A stretch of 6,795 nt of DNA from positions 1-6,795 of the forward strand of contig JALWSI010000012.1 of assembly GCA_027080315.1 (NCBI GenBank). The letters run 5' to 3'. Every line of letters begins with the position of its first letter. Position 1 is the first letter of the stretch. Below the pieces are notes generated by a model that ran no database searches, was not told the origin of the DNA, and was given only the letters and a program-made list of their open reading frames with translations. Below are positions 1-6,795 of the stretch, one piece after another. Origin of the DNA: a bacterium (lineage in GTDB: Bacteria > Thermosulfidibacterota > Thermosulfidibacteria > Thermosulfidibacterales > JALWSI01). The translations under genes were made by a program, and so were the position numbers.

Positions 1-977
1 TTCCCGAGGAGTACGGGGGAAGCGGCATGGACTCCCTATCCTTGGTGGTTGCCCTTCAAGAGGTGGGAAGGGGCTGTGCTTCTACAGCCGTCACCATGAG
101 CGTAACCAACATGGTGGCTCAAGGGAGCAGCGCCTTTGGCGCAGAAGAGCAGAAAAAGATGTATCTTCCCAAAATCTGTAGTGGAGAGTACGCTGCTGCA
201 AGTTTTGCCTTAACCGAGCCCTGGGCAGGTTCAGACGCCGCCTCTTTGAAGACCACAGCCCACAAAGAGGGTGACGAGTACGTAATAAACGGCTCCAAGC
301 TCTTCATCACCAGCGGCGCTTATGCCGGGGTGGTTATGGTAGCTGCGATAACCGACAAAGAGCAGGGCAAGCACGGAATAAGCGTCTTTCTTGTTGAGCA
401 GGGGACCCCTGGAATGATTATCGGAAAGGCAGAAGAGAAGATGGGTCAGAGGGGTTCCAACACTGTGGCCATAACCTTTGAAGACTGCCGTGTGCCTGCG
501 GAGAATCTACTGGGCAACGAGGGAGACGGCCTCAAGATCATGCTGGCGGACTTAGACATGGGACGTATCTGCATAGGAGCCCTGGCAACAGGCATACATC
601 GTGCTTGTCTTGAGGAATCGTTAAAATACTCCCAGGGCAGGGTGCAGTTTGGAAAACCCATCTCGTCTTTCCAAGCCATCCAGTGGATGCTGTCGGAAAT
701 GGCAACAGACCTTGAAGCAGCAGAGCAGCTCGTCTTTAGAGCAGCCTGGCTGAGAGACCAAGGCAAACCCTTCACCAAAGAGGCCTCAATGGCAAAGCTC
801 TTTGCTACAGAGGCAGCAAACAGAGCAGCCTACAAGGCCGTTCAGATCCACGGAGGCTACGGATACTCAAGGGAGTACACTGTTGAGCGGCTCTACAGAG
901 ATGTAAGGGTCACAACCATCTACGAGGGCACCTCTGAGATCCAGAGGATAGTGATTGCCCGTAACCTGTTGCACTGA
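1..977 (+). CDS. Acyl-CoA dehydrogenase, short-chain type (5' end missing)
   Basis: FAD-dependent acyl-CoA dehydrogenase that introduces the alpha,beta double bond of an acyl-CoA and passes electrons to ETF. The frame is open from base 3 and reads PEEYGGSG before the Met at base 27, so that Met is internal and roughly the first 60-80 residues lie outside the window. Visible family motifs, numbered from that Met: the flavin/substrate segment FALTEPWAGSDAAS (60-73), INGSKLFITSG (87-97), the helix with FGKPI (208-212), and IHGGYGYSREY near the C-terminus. The catalytic base is Glu300 in IYEGTSEIQR (codon 924-926), the short/medium-chain dehydrogenase position. The isovaleryl-CoA dehydrogenase position (LDLER in that enzyme) is Gly179 here, arguing against that subtype. 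Butyryl-CoA or isobutyryl-CoA would suit the neighbouring mutase, but chain length cannot be proved from sequence. The stop codon overlaps the next start. Confidence 0.95.
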   Translation, partial: PEEYGGSGMDSLSLVVALQEVGRGCASTAVTMSVTNMVAQGSSAFGAEEQKKMYLPKICSGEYAAASFALTEPWAGSDAASLKTTAHKEGDEYVINGSKLFITSGAYAGVVMVAAITDKEQGKHGISVFLVEQGTPGMIIGKAEEKMGQRGSNTVAITFEDCRVPAENLLGNEGDGLKIMLADLDMGRICIGALATGIHRACLEESLKYSQGRVQFGKPISSFQAIQWMLSEMATDLEAAEQLVFRAAWLRDQGKPFTKEASMAKLFATEAANRAAYKAVQIHGGYGYSREYTVERLYRDVRVTTIYEGTSEIQRIVIARNLLH

Positions 978-1510
978 TGCCGTTGGAGACAGGAAGGGTT
1001 CAGGTCTACACAGGGGACGGCAAGGGCAAGACCACAGCGGCCCTGGGCCTTGCGTGTAGGGCAGTGGGACACGACCTCAAGGTTGTGATGATCCAGTTCA
1101 TGAAAGGCTCCATAGACTACGGAGAGCTGAACACCGCCAAACGGCTGGCCCCAAACCTCACAATAATACAGCAGGGGAGAGAGAACTTTGTGAACCGTGA
1201 AGACCCCGATCCCATAGACGTAAAGATGGCCCAAGAGGGCATAAAGCTGGCCAAGAGGTTCATGGAGAAAGATCCTCCCGACATCCTGATACTTGACGAG
1301 TTGAACGTTGCGTTAGACTTTGGGCTGGTGAGCCTTGAACAGGTGCTTGAGCTCTTAAAGCTGAGACCAGAAAAGATGGAGCTGGTGATAACAGGAAGAT
1401 ACGCCCATCCAGAGGTTATGAAACGAGCAGATCTCATAACCGAGATGGTAGAGATAAAACACTACTACAACATGGAAGGTCTTGATGGCCGTGTTGGCAT
1501 AGAGAGGTAA
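977..1510 (+). CDS. cobO: Cob(I)alamin adenosyltransferase, CobO/CobA/BtuR type
   Basis: Transfers the 5'-deoxyadenosyl group from ATP to cob(I)alamin, making the adenosylcobalamin needed by the mutase encoded next. The 177-residue protein has the family's P-loop [12 protein letters not shown] (about 14-25), the following VVMIQFMKG strand, an acidic [12 protein letters not shown] strand (Walker B-like, about 101-112), VITGR (about 137-141) and the C-terminal ADLITEM..IKH segment. It begins almost directly at the P-loop, so it lacks the longer N-terminal extension of enterobacterial CobA. The ATG shares its first base with the dehydrogenase stop (TGATG), and no Shine-Dalgarno site lies just upstream, so translation is probably coupled. 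Placement inside a mutase operon indicates a dedicated cofactor-supply role rather than general corrinoid salvage. Confidence 0.95.
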
Positions 1511-1511
1511 G

Positions 1512-1519
1512 AAGGAGGA
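1512..1519 (+). promoter_or_regulatory. Strong ribosome binding site for mutase large subunit
   Basis: AAGGAGGA lies just after the cobO stop, with six bases between AGGAGG and the ATG at 1525. It fixes that start and predicts high expression of the mutase. Confidence 0.85.
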
Positions 1520-1524
1520 ATAGA

Positions 1525-3198
1525 ATGGCTGACGAGAAGATAAAAGAGGCTTTTGACTGCTGGGAAAAAGACGTTTACGCAAAAGAGGTGGCCAAACACC
1601 CTGAGCGCATGGAGAGATTCAGCACCATCTCTGACCTGGAGATAAAGCCCCTTTACACCCCCCTTGACCTTGAAGGGTTTGATTTTCTGAGGGATGTGGG
1701 CTTTCCTGGTAGCTATCCCTTCACAAGGGGAGTTCACTCCACCATGTACAGGGGTAGGTTGTGGACCATGCGCCAGTTCGCGGGTTTTGGCACCCCTGAG
1801 CAGACAAACGAGAGATACAAGTACCTTCTGAGCATTGGACAAACAGGACTCTCCATAGCCTTTGACTTTCCCACCCTTTACGGAAGAGACTCTGACGATC
1901 CCTTCTCACGAGGAGAGATCGGCAAGTGCGGAGTGGCAGTGGACACCTTAAGGGACTTTGAGATCATATTTGACGGCATCCCCATGGACAAGGTGACCAC
2001 CTCTATGACCATCAACCCACCCGCCATTGTGCTCTTGGCCATGTACATCGCCACTGCCGAGCAGCAGGGGGTTGGTCCCGACAAGATAGGAGGAACCATT
2101 CAGAACGACATGCTCAAAGAGTTCATCGCTCAAAAGACCTGGATCTACCCACCCCGTCCATCCCTCAGGCTCATAAGGGATACTGTGGTTTACTGCACCA
2201 ACCATGTTCCCAAGTGGAACACCATCTCCATCTCGGGCTACCACATCAGAGAGGCAGGAGCCACGGCCGTCCAAGAGCTGGCCTTCACCCTCGCTGACGG
2301 GATAGAGTACGTGAAGATGGGCATAGAAGCAGGTTTAGACGTGGACGCTTTTGCTCCCAGGTATTCTTTCTTCTTCGACAGCCACATGGACTTCTTCGAA
2401 GAGATCTGCAAGATGAGGGCCGCCAGAAGAATGTGGGCCAAGATCATGAAAGAGCGCTTTGGTGCAAAGAACCCCAGATCTTGGTGGATGCGCTTCCATA
2501 CTCAGACCGCAGGATGCTCTCTCACTGCCCAGCAGCCCTTGAACAACATCGTCCGTACCGCCTTAGAAGCCATGGCTGCAGTGCTTGGTGGAACCCAATC
2601 TCTCCACACCAACTCAATGGACGAAACCTGGGCATTACCCACCGAAGAGGCTGTGACTGTAGCCTTGAGAACCCAGCAGATCATCGCCCACGAAAGCGGG
2701 GTAACAAACACAATAGATCCTTTGGCAGGCTCCTACTTTGTTGAGGCCTTAACCAACGAGATGGAGGAGAAGGCCTGGGACTACATCAACAAGATCGAGG
2801 AGATGGGAGGCATCATCCCTGCCATAGAGAGAGGATACCCCCAGAAGGAGATCATTGAGGCGGCCTTTAGATTCCAGCAGCAGGTTGAAGCCAAAGAGAA
2901 GATCATTGTTGGCGTCAACGAGTACATCATGGAAGGTGAGGATCTGCCAATTGACATCCTGAAGGTGGATCCAGAGGTTGAAAGGGTGCAGCTTGAGCGT
3001 CTGAAAGAGGTGAGGTCAAAGAGAGACAATGCAAAGGTGAAGAGCCTGCTTGACGACCTTAGAGACGCTGCAGCCGACGAGAAGGAGAACCTTATGCCCA
3101 TAGTTCTCGATCTGGTAAGAGCATACGCCAGCATTGGAGAGATTATGGGCGCAATGAAGGATGTGTTTGGGGTTTACACCGACCCAGGCTACTTCTAA
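1525..3198 (+). CDS. B12-dependent acyl-CoA mutase large subunit, isobutyryl-CoA mutase-type active site
   Basis: Substrate-binding TIM-barrel subunit of the methylmalonyl-CoA mutase family; catalyses radical carbon-skeleton rearrangement of an acyl-CoA with adenosylcobalamin. At 557 residues it matches stand-alone large subunits and has no B12-binding domain, which is encoded separately at 4889-5305. Family landmarks: [19 protein letters not shown] (64-84), [10 protein letters not shown] (191-200), YPPRPS (208-213), ISISGYH (234-240) with Tyr239/His240 equal to Tyr243/His244 of the Propionibacterium enzyme, and QSLHTNS (358-364). The specificity residues differ from methylmalonyl-CoA mutase: Phe85 replaces Tyr89, and Gln203 replaces Arg207, which binds the substrate carboxylate. 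Phe plus Gln is the isobutyryl-CoA mutase signature. Ala112 sits where 2-hydroxyisobutyryl-CoA mutase has its diagnostic Asp. Isobutyryl-CoA/n-butyryl-CoA is the best substrate guess; pivalyl-/isovaleryl-CoA or a larger acyl-CoA remains possible. The symbol is left empty because orthology is unproved. Confidence 0.93.
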
Positions 3199-3208
3199 GC
3201 CCGAAAAA

Positions 3209-3216
3209 GGGGGAGG
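3209..3216 (+). promoter_or_regulatory. Ribosome binding site for CoA-transferase-like subunit A
   Basis: GGGGGAGG precedes the ATG at 3220. Only three bases separate GGAGG from the start, tighter than usual. The Met at 3220 is still preferred because the protein then begins at the same point as glutaconate CoA-transferase subunit A, and no better in-frame start lies nearby. Confidence 0.65.
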
Positions 3217-3219
3217 CAG

Positions 3220-4035
3220 ATGAAGGAGAAGCTCTGCTCATTACAAGAGGCAGTGGCCACCTACGTACACGACGGAGACGTTGTTGCCATAGGCGGCGTT
3301 GGAAGAAACCGTGCTCCCATGGCGCTGGTAAGAGAGGTGATTCGCCAGGGCAAGAAGAACCTTCACATTGTGGGGCGAGAGAAGGGTATGGAGTTTGACA
3401 TGCTCATTGGGGCAGGATGCGTCAAGAAGGTGAGCTTCGCCCTGGTGAGCCTTGAAGAGTTTGGTCTTGCCATGAACTTCAGACGCAAGGCCCAGGCAGG
3501 AGAGATTGAGCTTGACGAACACGCCTGCAACTCGGTAATCACCTCCCTCAGGGCAGCCTCAATGGGGCTTCCTTTTCTGCCTTTAAGAGGAATGTTCGGC
3601 TCTGGCGTGTTTGAGGTTAGTAAAAACCTCAAAGAGATAGAGTGTCCGTTCACAGGGGAGAGACTAGCGGCGGTGAGAGCCATAAAGCCCAATGTTACCC
3701 TCATTCACGCCCATCAGGCCGACAAATACGGCAATGTGCGCATCATGGGCTCCCCTTTTGAAGACATACTCAAAGCATGGGCGGCAGAGAAAACCATTGT
3801 GACAGTGGAAGAGATCATTGATAACGACGAGATAAGGAATAATCCCCAGCTAACCTCCATTCCCTACATCTACATTGACGCTGTGGTTCACCAGCCCAAG
3901 GGTGCATGGCCGGCCTCATGCGACTCTTACTACGACAGCGACATAGAAGAGATTAAAGCCTACGCCCAGGCGATAAAGAGTCCAGAGGGATTCCAGGAGT
4001 ACCTGGAGCAGCGGGTTTTGAGCAGGAGGGATTGA
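3220..4035 (+). CDS. CoA-transferase family I subunit A (GctA/IpdA-like)
   Basis: Alpha subunit of a two-subunit enzyme of the glutaconate CoA-transferase/IpdAB group. The 271-residue protein shows the N-terminal VHDGDVVAIGG turn followed by RAPMALVREV (about 16-41), GLPFLPLRGMFGSGV (116-130), the VTLIHAHQAD..GNVRI region (about 158-174), and a C-terminal block TIVTVEEII...DEIRNNP...IDAVV that resembles GctA closely. Asp99-Glu100 (ELDEHAC) falls where, from memory, IpdA-type hydrolases carry an important acidic residue; an alignment should confirm this. It is shorter than GctA (about 320 residues) and close to IpdA (about 290). The gene is one base from the B subunit and is inserted between the two mutase subunits. 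It is either a CoA transferase or, more likely given its partner's missing catalytic Glu, a C-C bond hydrolase acting on a cyclic or beta-keto acyl-CoA. Confidence 0.88.
   Translation: MKEKLCSLQEAVATYVHDGDVVAIGGVGRNRAPMALVREVIRQGKKNLHIVGREKGMEFDMLIGAGCVKKVSFALVSLEEFGLAMNFRRKAQAGEIELDEHACNSVITSLRAASMGLPFLPLRGMFGSGVFEVSKNLKEIECPFTGERLAAVRAIKPNVTLIHAHQADKYGNVRIMGSPFEDILKAWAAEKTIVTVEEIIDNDEIRNNPQLTSIPYIYIDAVVHQPKGAWPASCDSYYDSDIEEIKAYAQAIKSPEGFQEYLEQRVLSRRD
4024..4030 (+). promoter_or_regulatory. Ribosome binding site for CoA-transferase-like subunit B
   Basis: AGGAGGG sits inside the last codons of the A-subunit gene, six bases before the ATG at 4037. The two genes are separated by a single base, so stoichiometric, coupled translation is expected. 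Confidence 0.8.
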
Positions 4036-4036
4036 G

Positions 4037-4810
4037 ATGGCAGAGTACACCACCGCAGAATTGATGGCAGTATGCCTTGCAAGAGAGATCTCAGACGGAG
4101 ATAGGGTGCTGCAGGGGCTCTACTCTCCCCTGCCCATGATGGCTTGTCTCTTGGCAAAGAGGTTTCACGCTCCAAACATGACCTACTTCAACACAGCAGA
4201 TGTGATTGATCCCGAACCCAAAAAGGTTCCCTTCTCAACTGCAGGCCCGGCGCTCCAGGAGAGAGCCGTAACCTACATTCCGTTATGGCAGACCTTTGAC
4301 CTGGCACAAAGAGGTGAGCTTGATCTCATATTCTTGGGAGCGGCCCAGGTGGACAAACACGGCAACACCAATCTCAGCGCCATAGGGCCCTACGAGAAGC
4401 CCAAGGTGAGGCTGCCGGGAGGAGCCGCCTCTGCCCACCTCTGCGCCATAATGGATACGGTGATCTGGATACCCCGCCACAACAACAGGGTACTGGTTGA
4501 GAAGGTGGACTTCATTACGGGACAGGGATACCTGAGCGGTGGAGACGCCCGGGAGAAGGCCGGCATACCCAAAGGCGGCCCCCGCAAAGTGGTCACCAAT
4601 CTTTGCATAATGGATTTTGAGCCTGAAACCAAGGCTATGCGTCTGGTCTCTCTACATCCAGGGGTGAGCTTAGAACAGGTGAAAGAGGCAACCGGCTTTG
4701 AGCTCATCATACCCTCAGAGGTGAAAGAGACTGAGCCTCCCAGCCCTGAGGAGCTGGAGTTCATGAGAGAGATAGACCCCAAGGGAGTGAGGGAACTGGA
4801 GTTTCACTAA
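4037..4810 (+). CDS. CoA-transferase family I subunit B (GctB/IpdB-like), catalytic Glu missing
   Basis: Beta subunit partnering the preceding gene; 257 residues, the usual length. Family features: LLAKRFHAPN (38-47), FLGAAQVDKHGNTNLSAIG (about 98-116), a glycine-rich PGGAASAH loop, the RVLVEKVDFITGQGY strand, and a C-terminal MRLVSLHPGVSLEQV...IDPKGVREL segment that recalls mycobacterial IpdB. In glutaconate CoA-transferase the covalent CoA-ester residue is Glu54 in IIVESG. Aligning from the conserved AKR...AP segment puts Thr53 (YFNTAD) at that site, so the ping-pong transferase mechanism is not supported. IpdAB, the ring-cleaving hydrolase of steroid catabolism, also lacks this Glu. I therefore expect a hydrolase or retro-Claisen-type lyase rather than a transferase. 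The true substrate is unknown. Confidence 0.88.
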   Translation: MAEYTTAELMAVCLAREISDGDRVLQGLYSPLPMMACLLAKRFHAPNMTYFNTADVIDPEPKKVPFSTAGPALQERAVTYIPLWQTFDLAQRGELDLIFLGAAQVDKHGNTNLSAIGPYEKPKVRLPGGAASAHLCAIMDTVIWIPRHNNRVLVEKVDFITGQGYLSGGDAREKAGIPKGGPRKVVTNLCIMDFEPETKAMRLVSLHPGVSLEQVKEATGFELIIPSEVKETEPPSPEELEFMREIDPKGVRELEFH

Positions 4811-4888
4811 GATAGAGTCTGGAAATCAGCAGGTGACTCCATTAAAGTACCCTTTTGAATCCAGAAGAGAAAAAGAGCGGAGGATAAT
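4811..4888 (+). other. 78-base intergenic gap, no confident signal
   Basis: This is the only appreciable non-coding stretch in the window. It contains weak inverted repeats, GAGTC/GACTC (4815-4819 and 4835-4839) and TCTGGA/TCCAGA (4818-4823 and 4860-4865). Neither is GC-rich and neither is followed by a T-run, so no intrinsic terminator is called. No well-spaced promoter was found. It ends in the ribosome binding site of the mutase small subunit. Confidence 0.5.
4879..4883 (+). promoter_or_regulatory. Ribosome binding site for mutase small subunit
   Basis: GGAGG is five bases before the ATG at 4889, giving the small subunit strong translation independent of the gene upstream across the 78-base gap. 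Confidence 0.8.
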
Positions 4889-5305
4889 ATGGCACAAGAG
4901 AGAAAGGTAAAAATTCTGGTAGCCAAACCTGGACTTGATGGCCACGACCGGGGAGCAAAGGTTGTGGCTCGGGCACTTAGGGACGCAGGATTTGAGGTTA
5001 TTTACACCGGCCTGCATCAATCGTTAGAGCAGATTGTTGAGTCAGCAATAGAAGAGGATGTTGACGCCATTGGCATCAGCATACTTTCAGGGGCCCATAA
5101 CTACGTGTTTCCAACCCTTATGGAGCTTCTACGCAAAGAGGGTATGGATGACATCGTTGTCTTTGGTGGAGGCATAATTCCCTTGGACGACATTCCTGGT
5201 CTCAAAGAAGCAGGGGTGAAAGAGATATTCTTGCCAGGCACCTCTTTGGAAGAGATCGTTGACTGGGTGAAGGAGAACGTGAAACCCAGAGAGGTGGTTC
5301 TGTAG
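4889..5305 (+). CDS. B12-binding small subunit of acyl-CoA mutase
   Basis: Cobalamin-binding Rossmann-like domain that pairs with the large subunit at 1525-3198 to form the active mutase. The 138 residues cover just this domain. The base-off/His-on signature is complete: Asp17-x-His19-x-x-Gly22 (LDGHDRG), where His19 is the lower axial cobalt ligand; Ser64-x-Leu66 (SILSGAH); and the GGGIIP loop (93-98), which accommodates the nucleotide tail. The N-terminal [13 protein letters not shown] segment is typical of the mutase family rather than of methionine synthase or corrinoid methyltransferase domains. As a free subunit it matches IcmB or archaeal/anaerobe-type split mutases. Unusually, it is separated from the large-subunit gene by the two CoA-transferase-like genes. 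The crotonase gene follows after five bases. Confidence 0.95.
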
Positions 5306-5310
5306 GTCCC

Positions 5311-6081
5311 ATGGAACAGGAGGCGGGAGAGAAGGTCTCTCCGGTTACTCAAAACCGCCCCCTCCCCTACCGATTCCTTAAAGTGGAAGAGGGGGGAGAG
5401 GGGGTGCTTCACCTATGGATAGACCGTGCTAAACAGCTAAACACCCTTAGCGTGCCCACACTCCATGAGTTAACCAGCTTCTTTGCTTCCCTTCCCCAAA
5501 TGAAACATCAGGTTCTACTCATAAGAGGGGCAGGAGGGAAGGCATTTGCAGCAGGGGCAAATATAAAAGAGCTGATCCCCTTTGGTCCATGGGAGGCAAG
5601 GGAGTTTTCAGCCTTAGGACAGAACATATTCTTTCTCATGGAATCGGCTCCCCAAACCATAATAGCTGCAATAGACGGCTACTGTATGGGAGGCGGATGC
5701 GATTTTGCCATGGGAGCCGATATAAGGGTGGCGTCAGAGCGTTCGGTGTTTGCCCACACAGGGGCAAAGATGGGTATAATTACTGGTTTTGGTGGTACCC
5801 AAAGGTTGCCCAGGCTTGTGGGTATGCGCCACGCAAAAGAGATCTTCTTCACCGCAGAAAGGTTCTCTGCCCATGAGGCCTTACGAAAGGGATTTATCAC
5901 CCAGGTGATACCAACAGAGACCTTTCACCAAGAGGTTGAAAACCTGGCACAAAGGATAGCCAAAAGACCAGCCAAGGAGATGAAAAGGGCAAAAAGACTG
6001 CTGTGCAAGGCAATGGACATAAACAGGAATGCACACAGGCTTTTGGAATACAGTAATAGTGGAGACAGGCAATGGGAATAA
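5311..6081 (+). CDS. Crotonase-fold protein (enoyl-CoA hydratase/isomerase family), atypical active site
   Basis: Acts on an acyl-CoA thioester using the crotonase oxyanion hole: KAFAAGANIKEL (77-88) and the GYCMGGGCD loop (123-131), with Gly128 at the position of rat hydratase Gly141. The two catalytic glutamates of enoyl-CoA hydratase are not kept: Glu144 is Asp131 and Glu164 is Gly151 (FAHTGAKMG), although GGTQRLPRLVG follows normally. Simple water addition to an enoyl-CoA is therefore doubtful; isomerase, hydrolase, decarboxylase or C-C lyase activity is possible in this fold. The protein is 256 residues but has about 19 extra N-terminal residues, and it ends at GDRQWE, where family members continue with a final helix (EG..AF.EKR type). 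No good Shine-Dalgarno site precedes the ATG; the nearest, GAGGTGG (5291-5297), is 13 bases away, so coupling to the upstream gene is likely. The 3' end overlaps meaB. Confidence 0.9.
   Translation: MEQEAGEKVSPVTQNRPLPYRFLKVEEGGEGVLHLWIDRAKQLNTLSVPTLHELTSFFASLPQMKHQVLLIRGAGGKAFAAGANIKELIPFGPWEAREFSALGQNIFFLMESAPQTIIAAIDGYCMGGGCDFAMGADIRVASERSVFAHTGAKMGIITGFGGTQRLPRLVGMRHAKEIFFTAERFSAHEALRKGFITQVIPTETFHQEVENLAQRIAKRPAKEMKRAKRLLCKAMDINRNAHRLLEYSNSGDRQWE
6061..6064 (+). promoter_or_regulatory. Ribosome binding site for meaB inside crotonase gene
   Basis: GGAG lies seven bases before the ATG at 6072, within the crotonase coding sequence. It supports that start and the overlap of the two genes. 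Confidence 0.65.
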
Positions 6082-6795
6082 TAGAGAGAGTTCTTCAGGG
6101 AGACAGACGAGCCGCCGCCAGGGTGATGAGATGGGTTGAAGACGATCTACCCGAGGCACGGGAGGTGTTAAAGGCCATCTATCCTCACTGCGGAAGGGCC
6201 TACGTGATTGGCATAACCGGCCCACCAGGAGGGGGAAAGAGCACCTTGGTGGACCAGCTAATTGAGGCATTCTGTAAAAGGGGAAACACCGTTGGGGTTG
6301 TGGCAATAGACCCCACCAGCCCATTCTCAGGAGGAGCCATCCTGGGAGACAGGATCCGCATGCAGAGGCACAGCGGAGACGAGAGGGTGTTTGTGAAGAG
6401 CCTCGCCACAAGAGGACACCTTGGGGGTCTCTCAAAGTCCACCGACGATGTGATCCAGGTGATGGATGCAATGGGGAAAGACGTGATCCTCGTTGAGACA
6501 GTTGGAGTGGGACAGGACGAGGTGGATATTGTGAAGACAGCAGACACCACCGTCGTGGTGACGGTACCGGGCCTCGGAGACGACATCCAGCACATCAAAG
6601 CAGGGGTACTGGAGATAGGTGACGTCTTTGTTGTAAACAAAGGGGACCGACCCGACGCAGACAGAACCCAAAGGGATCTTGAAATCATGCTTGAGATGAG
6701 CGCCCCCAGACCAGACAACTGGAAGCCCAAGATCGTTCGTACAGTGGCCTACAAGGGAGAAGGCATAGAGGACCTTGTGGACGCCATAATGGAAC
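6072..6795 (+). CDS. meaB: MeaB/ArgK-type G-protein chaperone of B12-dependent mutase (3' end missing)
   Basis: G3E-family GTPase that gates delivery and release of adenosylcobalamin and protects the mutase from inactivation. The frame is open from the ATG to the window edge, giving 241 residues of an expected 300-330. Motifs: Walker A GPPGGGKS (50-57), DPTSPFSGGAILGDRIRM (80-97, the switch/Mg-binding region), VETVGVGQDEVD (141-152, G3 and the conserved ETVGVGQ), and NKGD (189-192, guanine specificity). The start overlaps the crotonase end by ten bases. The N-terminal helix MGIIERVLQGDRRAAARVMR is standard for the family, supporting this start. The C-terminal dimerisation arm lies outside the window. 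It is probably specific for the mutase in this operon; in IcmF-type isobutyryl-CoA mutases the same G domain is fused to the enzyme, whereas here it is separate. Confidence 0.95.
   Translation, partial: MGIIERVLQGDRRAAARVMRWVEDDLPEAREVLKAIYPHCGRAYVIGITGPPGGGKSTLVDQLIEAFCKRGNTVGVVAIDPTSPFSGGAILGDRIRMQRHSGDERVFVKSLATRGHLGGLSKSTDDVIQVMDAMGKDVILVETVGVGQDEVDIVKTADTTVVVTVPGLGDDIQHIKAGVLEIGDVFVVNKGDRPDADRTQRDLEIMLEMSAPRPDNWKPKIVRTVAYKGEGIEDLVDAIME

Follow-up and report, generated by a model that had tools for sequence, protein, structure and literature searches.

The window analysed here, a 6,795-nucleotide stretch of a Thermosulfidibacterales genome (positions 1-6,795, the first part of the 9.3-kb contig C12), probably encodes a two-subunit, adenosylcobalamin-dependent isobutyryl-coenzyme A (CoA) mutase that would feed a butyryl-CoA-type dehydrogenase encoded beside it. 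The source genome is 1.84 Mb in 253 contigs and 94% complete, and all genes discussed in the window are on the forward strand. The large, substrate-binding subunit (557 amino acids; 1525-3198) matches PF01642 at 764 bits and TIGR00641 at 822 bits, and its fold can be taken as certain, since it shares about 50% identity with a solved enzyme. The small, B12-binding subunit (138 amino acids; 4889-5305) matches TIGR00640 at 171.6 bits as well as PF02310, and its translation reads DGHDRG at 4937-4954, the DxHxxG cobalamin-binding motif.

Residues of the active site are one line of evidence. In a residue-by-residue alignment to solved enzymes, Phe85 (codon TTC, 1777-1779) falls on the tyrosine of RQYAGF in Propionibacterium and human methylmalonyl-CoA mutase (MCM), and Gln203 (codon CAA, 2131-2133) on the arginine of KEFMVRNTYI in the same two enzymes; these are the positions of Tyr89 and Arg207. 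The same two sites have served elsewhere to identify an MCM by its Tyr/Arg pair (PMC7238569, citing Jost et al., 2015). Both the solved Cupriavidus IcmF (4xc6) and an Ideonella homologue have Phe (RMFAGEG) and Gln (KEDQGQNT) in these columns, and 2-hydroxyisobutyryl-CoA mutase (4r3u) has Ile and Gln. At a third column the window enzyme has Ala112 (1858-1860), with Ala also in MCM and IcmF, where the 2-hydroxyisobutyryl enzyme has Asp117, which speaks against that activity. Over the three sites the window enzyme and IcmF are of one type, Phe/Gln/Ala, while MCM is Tyr/Arg/Ala, 2-hydroxyisobutyryl-CoA mutase is Ile/Gln/Asp, and Xanthobacter Xaut_5043, the pivalyl-CoA mutase candidate, is Leu/Asn/Leu. 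An earlier, sequence-only reading of this DNA had placed Phe85 and Gln203 at these codons, equated them with Tyr89 and Arg207 of the Propionibacterium enzyme and recognized Phe/Gln as the isobutyryl-CoA mutase pair; all three claims were borne out by the translated open reading frame and by the alignments, which included MCM, IcmF, 2-hydroxyisobutyryl-CoA mutase and Xaut_5043. Substitution of Gln for Arg207 leaves the free carboxylate without its partner, so that a non-carboxylated acyl-CoA is expected, and Phe/Gln predicts a short acyl-CoA of this kind, not isobutyryl-CoA alone.

A search of 84,980 species genomes showed Phe/Gln in 79 of the 80 closest loci, so that the pair in the window is not a matter of chance; the lone exception (L052) has Tyr/Arg and adjoins epimerase and carboxyltransferase genes. 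The Phe/Gln label is clustered on the tree, with 3 changes versus 13.8 in shuffles. Neighbouring genes were counted over 6 kb on each side of the loci with enough flank, 64 with Phe/Gln and 7 with Tyr/Arg. Acyl-CoA dehydrogenase genes were found at 47/64 of the Phe/Gln loci, together with few carboxyltransferase (5/64) or epimerase (2/64) genes and no biotin carboxylase (0/64), whereas the Tyr/Arg loci had carboxyltransferase at 7/7, biotin carboxylase and epimerase at 4/7 each, and acyl-CoA dehydrogenase at 0/7. In the loci examined, the two residues and the neighbouring genes tell both kinds of mutase apart.

The same genome encodes a second mutase (L004:9781-11463, minus strand) that has Tyr/Arg and adjoins genes for a biotin carrier, a biotin carboxylase and a carboxyltransferase, and a methylmalonyl-CoA epimerase is encoded elsewhere, at C107. 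With these genes the organism would not need the window mutase for a methylmalonyl-CoA route. Neither a carboxylase nor an epimerase gene turned up in the window or among the open reading frames on the rest of the 9.3-kb contig, in line with the sequence-only reading, which had seen no propionyl-CoA carboxylase or epimerase gene in the operon. IcmF-type enzymes are widely misannotated as MCM (PMC7764203). The reading had likewise warned that homology-based naming would mislead, and the best model over its cut-off is indeed TIGR00641, “methylmalonyl-CoA mutase N-terminal domain”; such default naming assigns to propionate metabolism what should be read as branched-chain acid metabolism. Its proposal of a non-carboxylated substrate and an isobutyryl-CoA mutase gains support from the residues, the separate Tyr/Arg mutase and the neighbouring genes.

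In enzymes of this family the acyl-CoA is bound in a TIM barrel of the large subunit, and adenosylcobalamin is presented in its base-off form by the small subunit via DxHxxG; the CO-SCoA group migrates in a reaction driven by a 5'-deoxyadenosyl radical. By this radical migration the window mutase would interconvert isobutyryl-CoA and n-butyryl-CoA, a pair chosen because it is the simplest and because the neighbouring dehydrogenase fits its product. The direction and pathway that we infer would most likely lead from a branched acyl-CoA (for example from valine) through the mutase and the butyryl-CoA-type dehydrogenase to crotonyl-CoA; CobA would supply the cofactor, and MeaB would load it. The dehydrogenase gene (3-977; PF00441/PF02770/PF02771), its 5' end cut by the contig start, encodes a YEGTSEIQR motif read from the sequence, and the solved enzymes closest to its product include butyryl- and short-chain acyl-CoA dehydrogenases (341-316 bits), with lower scores for short/branched-chain (274 bits), isobutyryl- (251 bits) and isovaleryl-CoA dehydrogenases (229 bits).

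Directly downstream of the dehydrogenase gene is a CobA/BtuR-type ATP:cob(I)alamin adenosyltransferase gene (977-1510; PF02572, E 6.6e-60), of which the genome has a second copy at G000:C151. The MeaB G-protein chaperone gene (6072-6794; TIGR00750, 334 bits) runs on past the window; a run of 10 N lies directly after the window at L003:6796-6805, inside this gene, and its frame beyond that point is uncertain. The nearest relatives of the window locus form one order of genomes. Contig breaks and small genes missed by a simple gene caller aside, the gene order of the window, minus a crotonase-family gene, recurs in order-mates G001, G003, G005, G006 and G007. G002 has the same order with the crotonase, on a contig that stops before MeaB, and G008 keeps the order over the fragment that its contig covers. 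Just upstream in G003 and G005 are genes for EtfB, EtfA and an Fe-S oxidoreductase, named by visual inspection of their sequences. A riboswitch search of the window and of four order-mate loci was negative.

The genes between the two mutase subunits would usually be annotated as a CoA-transferase. The first (3220-4035; PF01144) encodes a GctA-like subunit, annotated as CoA-transferase subunit A, whose solved matches are, in descending order, subunit A of glutaconate CoA-transferase (1poi), AibA and IpdA; the second (4037-4810; PF01144) encodes a GctB-like subunit with matches to 1poi_B, AibB and IpdB, so that the closest solved relatives of the pair are glutaconate CoA-transferase, AibAB and IpdAB. 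In the column of the catalytic Glu of type I CoA-transferases the window beta subunit has Thr53, within an Asn-Thr-Ala-Asp motif (4190-4201) that takes the place of Glu-Ser-Gly and is identical in all compared orthologues from the order. The same alignment has Glu in the glutaconate enzyme and a pca-operon homologue and Cys in an Aib-like homologue (L113), which was added to settle that the AibB Cys and the Glu share one column. The same loss of the catalytic Glu is known from IpdAB, a C-C hydrolase (PMC5380842), and in the AibAB decarboxylase, which has Cys56, variants with Ala, Ser, Asn or Val stay active (PMC7756340). From these residues the window pair is probably not a CoA-transferase, and its candidacy as an isobutyryl-CoA:acetate CoA-transferase that activates isobutyrate was rejected, since the catalytic Glu is missing. 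A similar isobutyrate-activation argument has been made for another organism (PMC7764203); an argument from a neighbouring CoA-transferase would not apply to the window, given that the pair is probably not one. Throughout the order the GctAB-like pair is fixed beside the Phe/Gln mutase.

Paralogous GctAB-like pairs were also observed (L154:1530-2815 and L153:2343-3628), with thiolase and acyl-CoA dehydrogenase genes and a beta subunit 54-56% identical. In G007 the paralogous-pair cluster has, in addition, badI-like, badH-like and 3-hydroxyacyl-CoA dehydrogenase genes, as in ring degradation.

The crotonase-family protein (5311-6081; PF00378) has Asp131 and Gly151 at the positions of Glu144 and Glu164 (rat crotonase numbering), the two usual hydratase glutamates, and its G002 homologue has neither Glu. 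An ordinary enoyl-CoA hydratase was rejected on these grounds. Only the window and G002 have a crotonase in the operon.

Several observations weigh against isobutyryl-CoA as the substrate. The Glu-less GctAB-like pair and the crotonase without glutamates fit poorly into a plain route from isobutyrate to crotonyl-CoA, and Phe/Gln is not specific to isobutyryl-CoA because IcmF also acts on pivalyl- and isovaleryl-CoA (PMC10481361). In overall sequence the window enzyme scores highest against solved 2-hydroxyisobutyryl-CoA mutase (609 bits), next against human MCM (545 bits), and lower against IcmF (294 bits). The tree, built without Streptomyces IcmA, gives no firm join of the window enzyme to characterized isobutyryl-CoA mutases; the deep branches joining the Phe/Gln enzymes, MCM and IcmF are not resolved, and IcmF is a long branch, so that family membership rests on residues and context and not on the tree.

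Other substrates were also weighed. The enzyme might act mainly on another branched or cyclic acyl-CoA, such as 2-methylbutyryl-CoA or a ring-derived compound, in an undescribed pathway with non-canonical GctAB-like and crotonase proteins. In its favour are a GctAB-like pair with Thr for Glu that stays beside the mutase across the order, the loss of both hydratase glutamates, and the badI-like and badH-like genes that cluster with the paralogous pair in G007. We consider it unlikely, however: the three residues match IcmF exactly, a GctAB-like neighbour is missing at most of the 79 nearest Phe/Gln relatives, which retain the residue pair, and the crotonase is confined to the window and G002. 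An isovaleryl-CoA or pivalyl-CoA mutase seems less probable still. The idea draws on the second activity of IcmF (PMC10481361) and on AibAB, which is among the solved proteins nearest to the GctAB-like pair and has a role in isovaleryl-CoA metabolism (PMC7756340), but the adjacent dehydrogenase resembles butyryl- and not isovaleryl-CoA dehydrogenases. Xaut_5043, the pivalyl-CoA mutase candidate, is a further point against it, being Leu/Asn and far from the window enzyme in the tree. A pivalyl-CoA mutase as the main activity was rejected on the residues, as the Leu/Asn pair is absent.

Two names suggested by overall similarity can be set aside with much more confidence. MCM, the name that automatic annotation would give, is favoured by the TIGR00641 and PF01642 matches and by the adjoining MeaB and CobA genes, but with neither Arg207 nor Tyr89, no carboxylase or epimerase nearby, and a genuine Tyr/Arg mutase encoded within a carboxylase operon of the same genome, this identity is highly improbable and was rejected on residues and gene context. 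On the same two grounds we rejected, as scarcely credible, a 2-hydroxyisobutyryl-CoA mutase, which is the top-scoring solved enzyme but has Ile90 and Asp117 where the window has Phe85 and Ala112, forms a separate starred clade in the tree, and occurs in Methylibium and Xanthobacter clusters with an acyl-CoA ligase that the window operon lacks.

Other mutase types were seen in passing. In Sinorhizobium sp. M103 a mutase with Val/Gln/Asp at the three sites (L092:4971-6671) groups with the 2-hydroxyisobutyryl-CoA mutases, in a cluster that holds an aminotransferase, an enoyl-CoA hydratase and an AMP ligase. A divergent Leu/Arg mutase of Rhodococcus fascians pFiD188 (L093:4968-6431) lies within a non-ribosomal peptide synthetase cluster that also holds a crotonyl-CoA carboxylase/reductase, and a divergent mutase of Sphingobium sp. 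TomTYG65 (L095:3971-5692) has Val at both specificity sites. The 2.5-Mb genome G039 has 19 mutase matches over many contigs.

Returning to the isobutyryl-CoA mutase proposed for the window, its small subunit is the only B12-binding small subunit above the cut-off in a genome with two large subunits. G001, G006, G007 and the less complete G002 likewise carry one large subunit of each type, Phe/Gln and Tyr/Arg, with a single small subunit above the cut-off, always in the Phe/Gln operon, and no small subunit was found in the Tyr/Arg operons of the order. A second small subunit, adjoining a third mutase, is present in G003 and G005. Strong MeaB matches are likewise single in these genomes, located at the Phe/Gln operon. 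Seven genomes outside the order (G014, G016, G017, G022, G027, G028 and G040) have one Phe/Gln mutase, one Tyr/Arg mutase and one small subunit above the cut-off, which in six of them adjoins the Phe/Gln gene or lies close to it and in G028 is located elsewhere, and two Bathyarchaeota genomes have two large subunits and one small one. As a positive control, small-subunit counts equalled large-subunit counts, with the genes mostly adjacent, in G041, G043 and G045, which include deltaproteobacterial relatives, and in Dehalococcoidia G049; the search thus finds partners where they are present. Assembly gaps do not plausibly explain all of these cases, but a highly diverged partner might conceivably have escaped the search, and in the small-subunit tree the partners of Tyr/Arg and Phe/Gln mutases are not clearly separated.

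These counts suggest that one B12-binding subunit may serve both large subunits. A broader proposal, which we offer tentatively and would put just below an even chance, is that within the order and beyond it, in lineages that include Bathyarchaeota, the small subunit of the isobutyryl operon is common to isobutyryl- and methylmalonyl-CoA large subunits, as interchangeable substrate subunits, and that the Glu-less GctAB-like pair carries out an undescribed acyl-CoA step. Should such sharing be real, two pathways would hang on one protein and one MeaB for B12 loading and repair. In genomes with a single small subunit, a standard metabolic reconstruction would also miss that MCM has no partner gene of its own. 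A targeted literature search found no paper obviously describing small-subunit sharing, which is weak evidence of novelty; the apparent sharing and the Glu-less pair are what a specialist might find surprising.

The third mutase type of the order (L155:9583-11352 and L156:7582-9351, in G003 and G005) has Leu at the first specificity site and, close to the second, an insertion of one residue. Beside it are genes for a small subunit of its own, an AMP-dependent ligase, a TRAP transporter and an FAD-linked oxidase with an Fe-S partner, plus a GntR regulator in L155.

The predicted enzyme is of a known kind, and the features that mark isobutyryl-CoA mutases are present: Phe/Gln, a small subunit with DxHxxG and a MeaB G-protein chaperone. 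Such clusters have already been proposed for syntrophs and sulfate reducers, namely an isobutyryl-CoA mutase in the Syntrophothermus lipocalidus cluster Slip_0757-0760 and a related group in sulfate reducers (PMC5017805). Compared by description, the Slip_0757-0760 cluster and the window have an anaerobic short-chain acid setting in common, and the window adds the acyl-CoA dehydrogenase, the Glu-less GctAB-like pair and the crotonase. With IcmF (4xc6) the window shares Phe/Gln/Ala and the B12-binding, G-protein and mutase functions, but IcmF has them in one chain of about 1,100 amino acids and the window in three genes, and the two large subunits are only distantly similar. HcmA/B (4r3u) is similar in its two-subunit layout, in Gln at the Arg207 position and in a nearby MeaB, and differs in that the window has Phe for Ile90, Ala for Asp117 and no ligase gene. 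The genome's own MCM is of the same fold family at 61% identity, but has Tyr/Arg, an operon with carboxyltransferase and biotin carboxylase, and no small subunit gene of its own that could be found. The GctAB-like pair, finally, belongs to the same two-subunit family as AibAB, IpdAB and glutaconate CoA-transferase, and is set apart by the residue in the Glu column, which is Thr in the window, Cys in AibB, Glu in glutaconate CoA-transferase and, as reported, Gly in IpdB.
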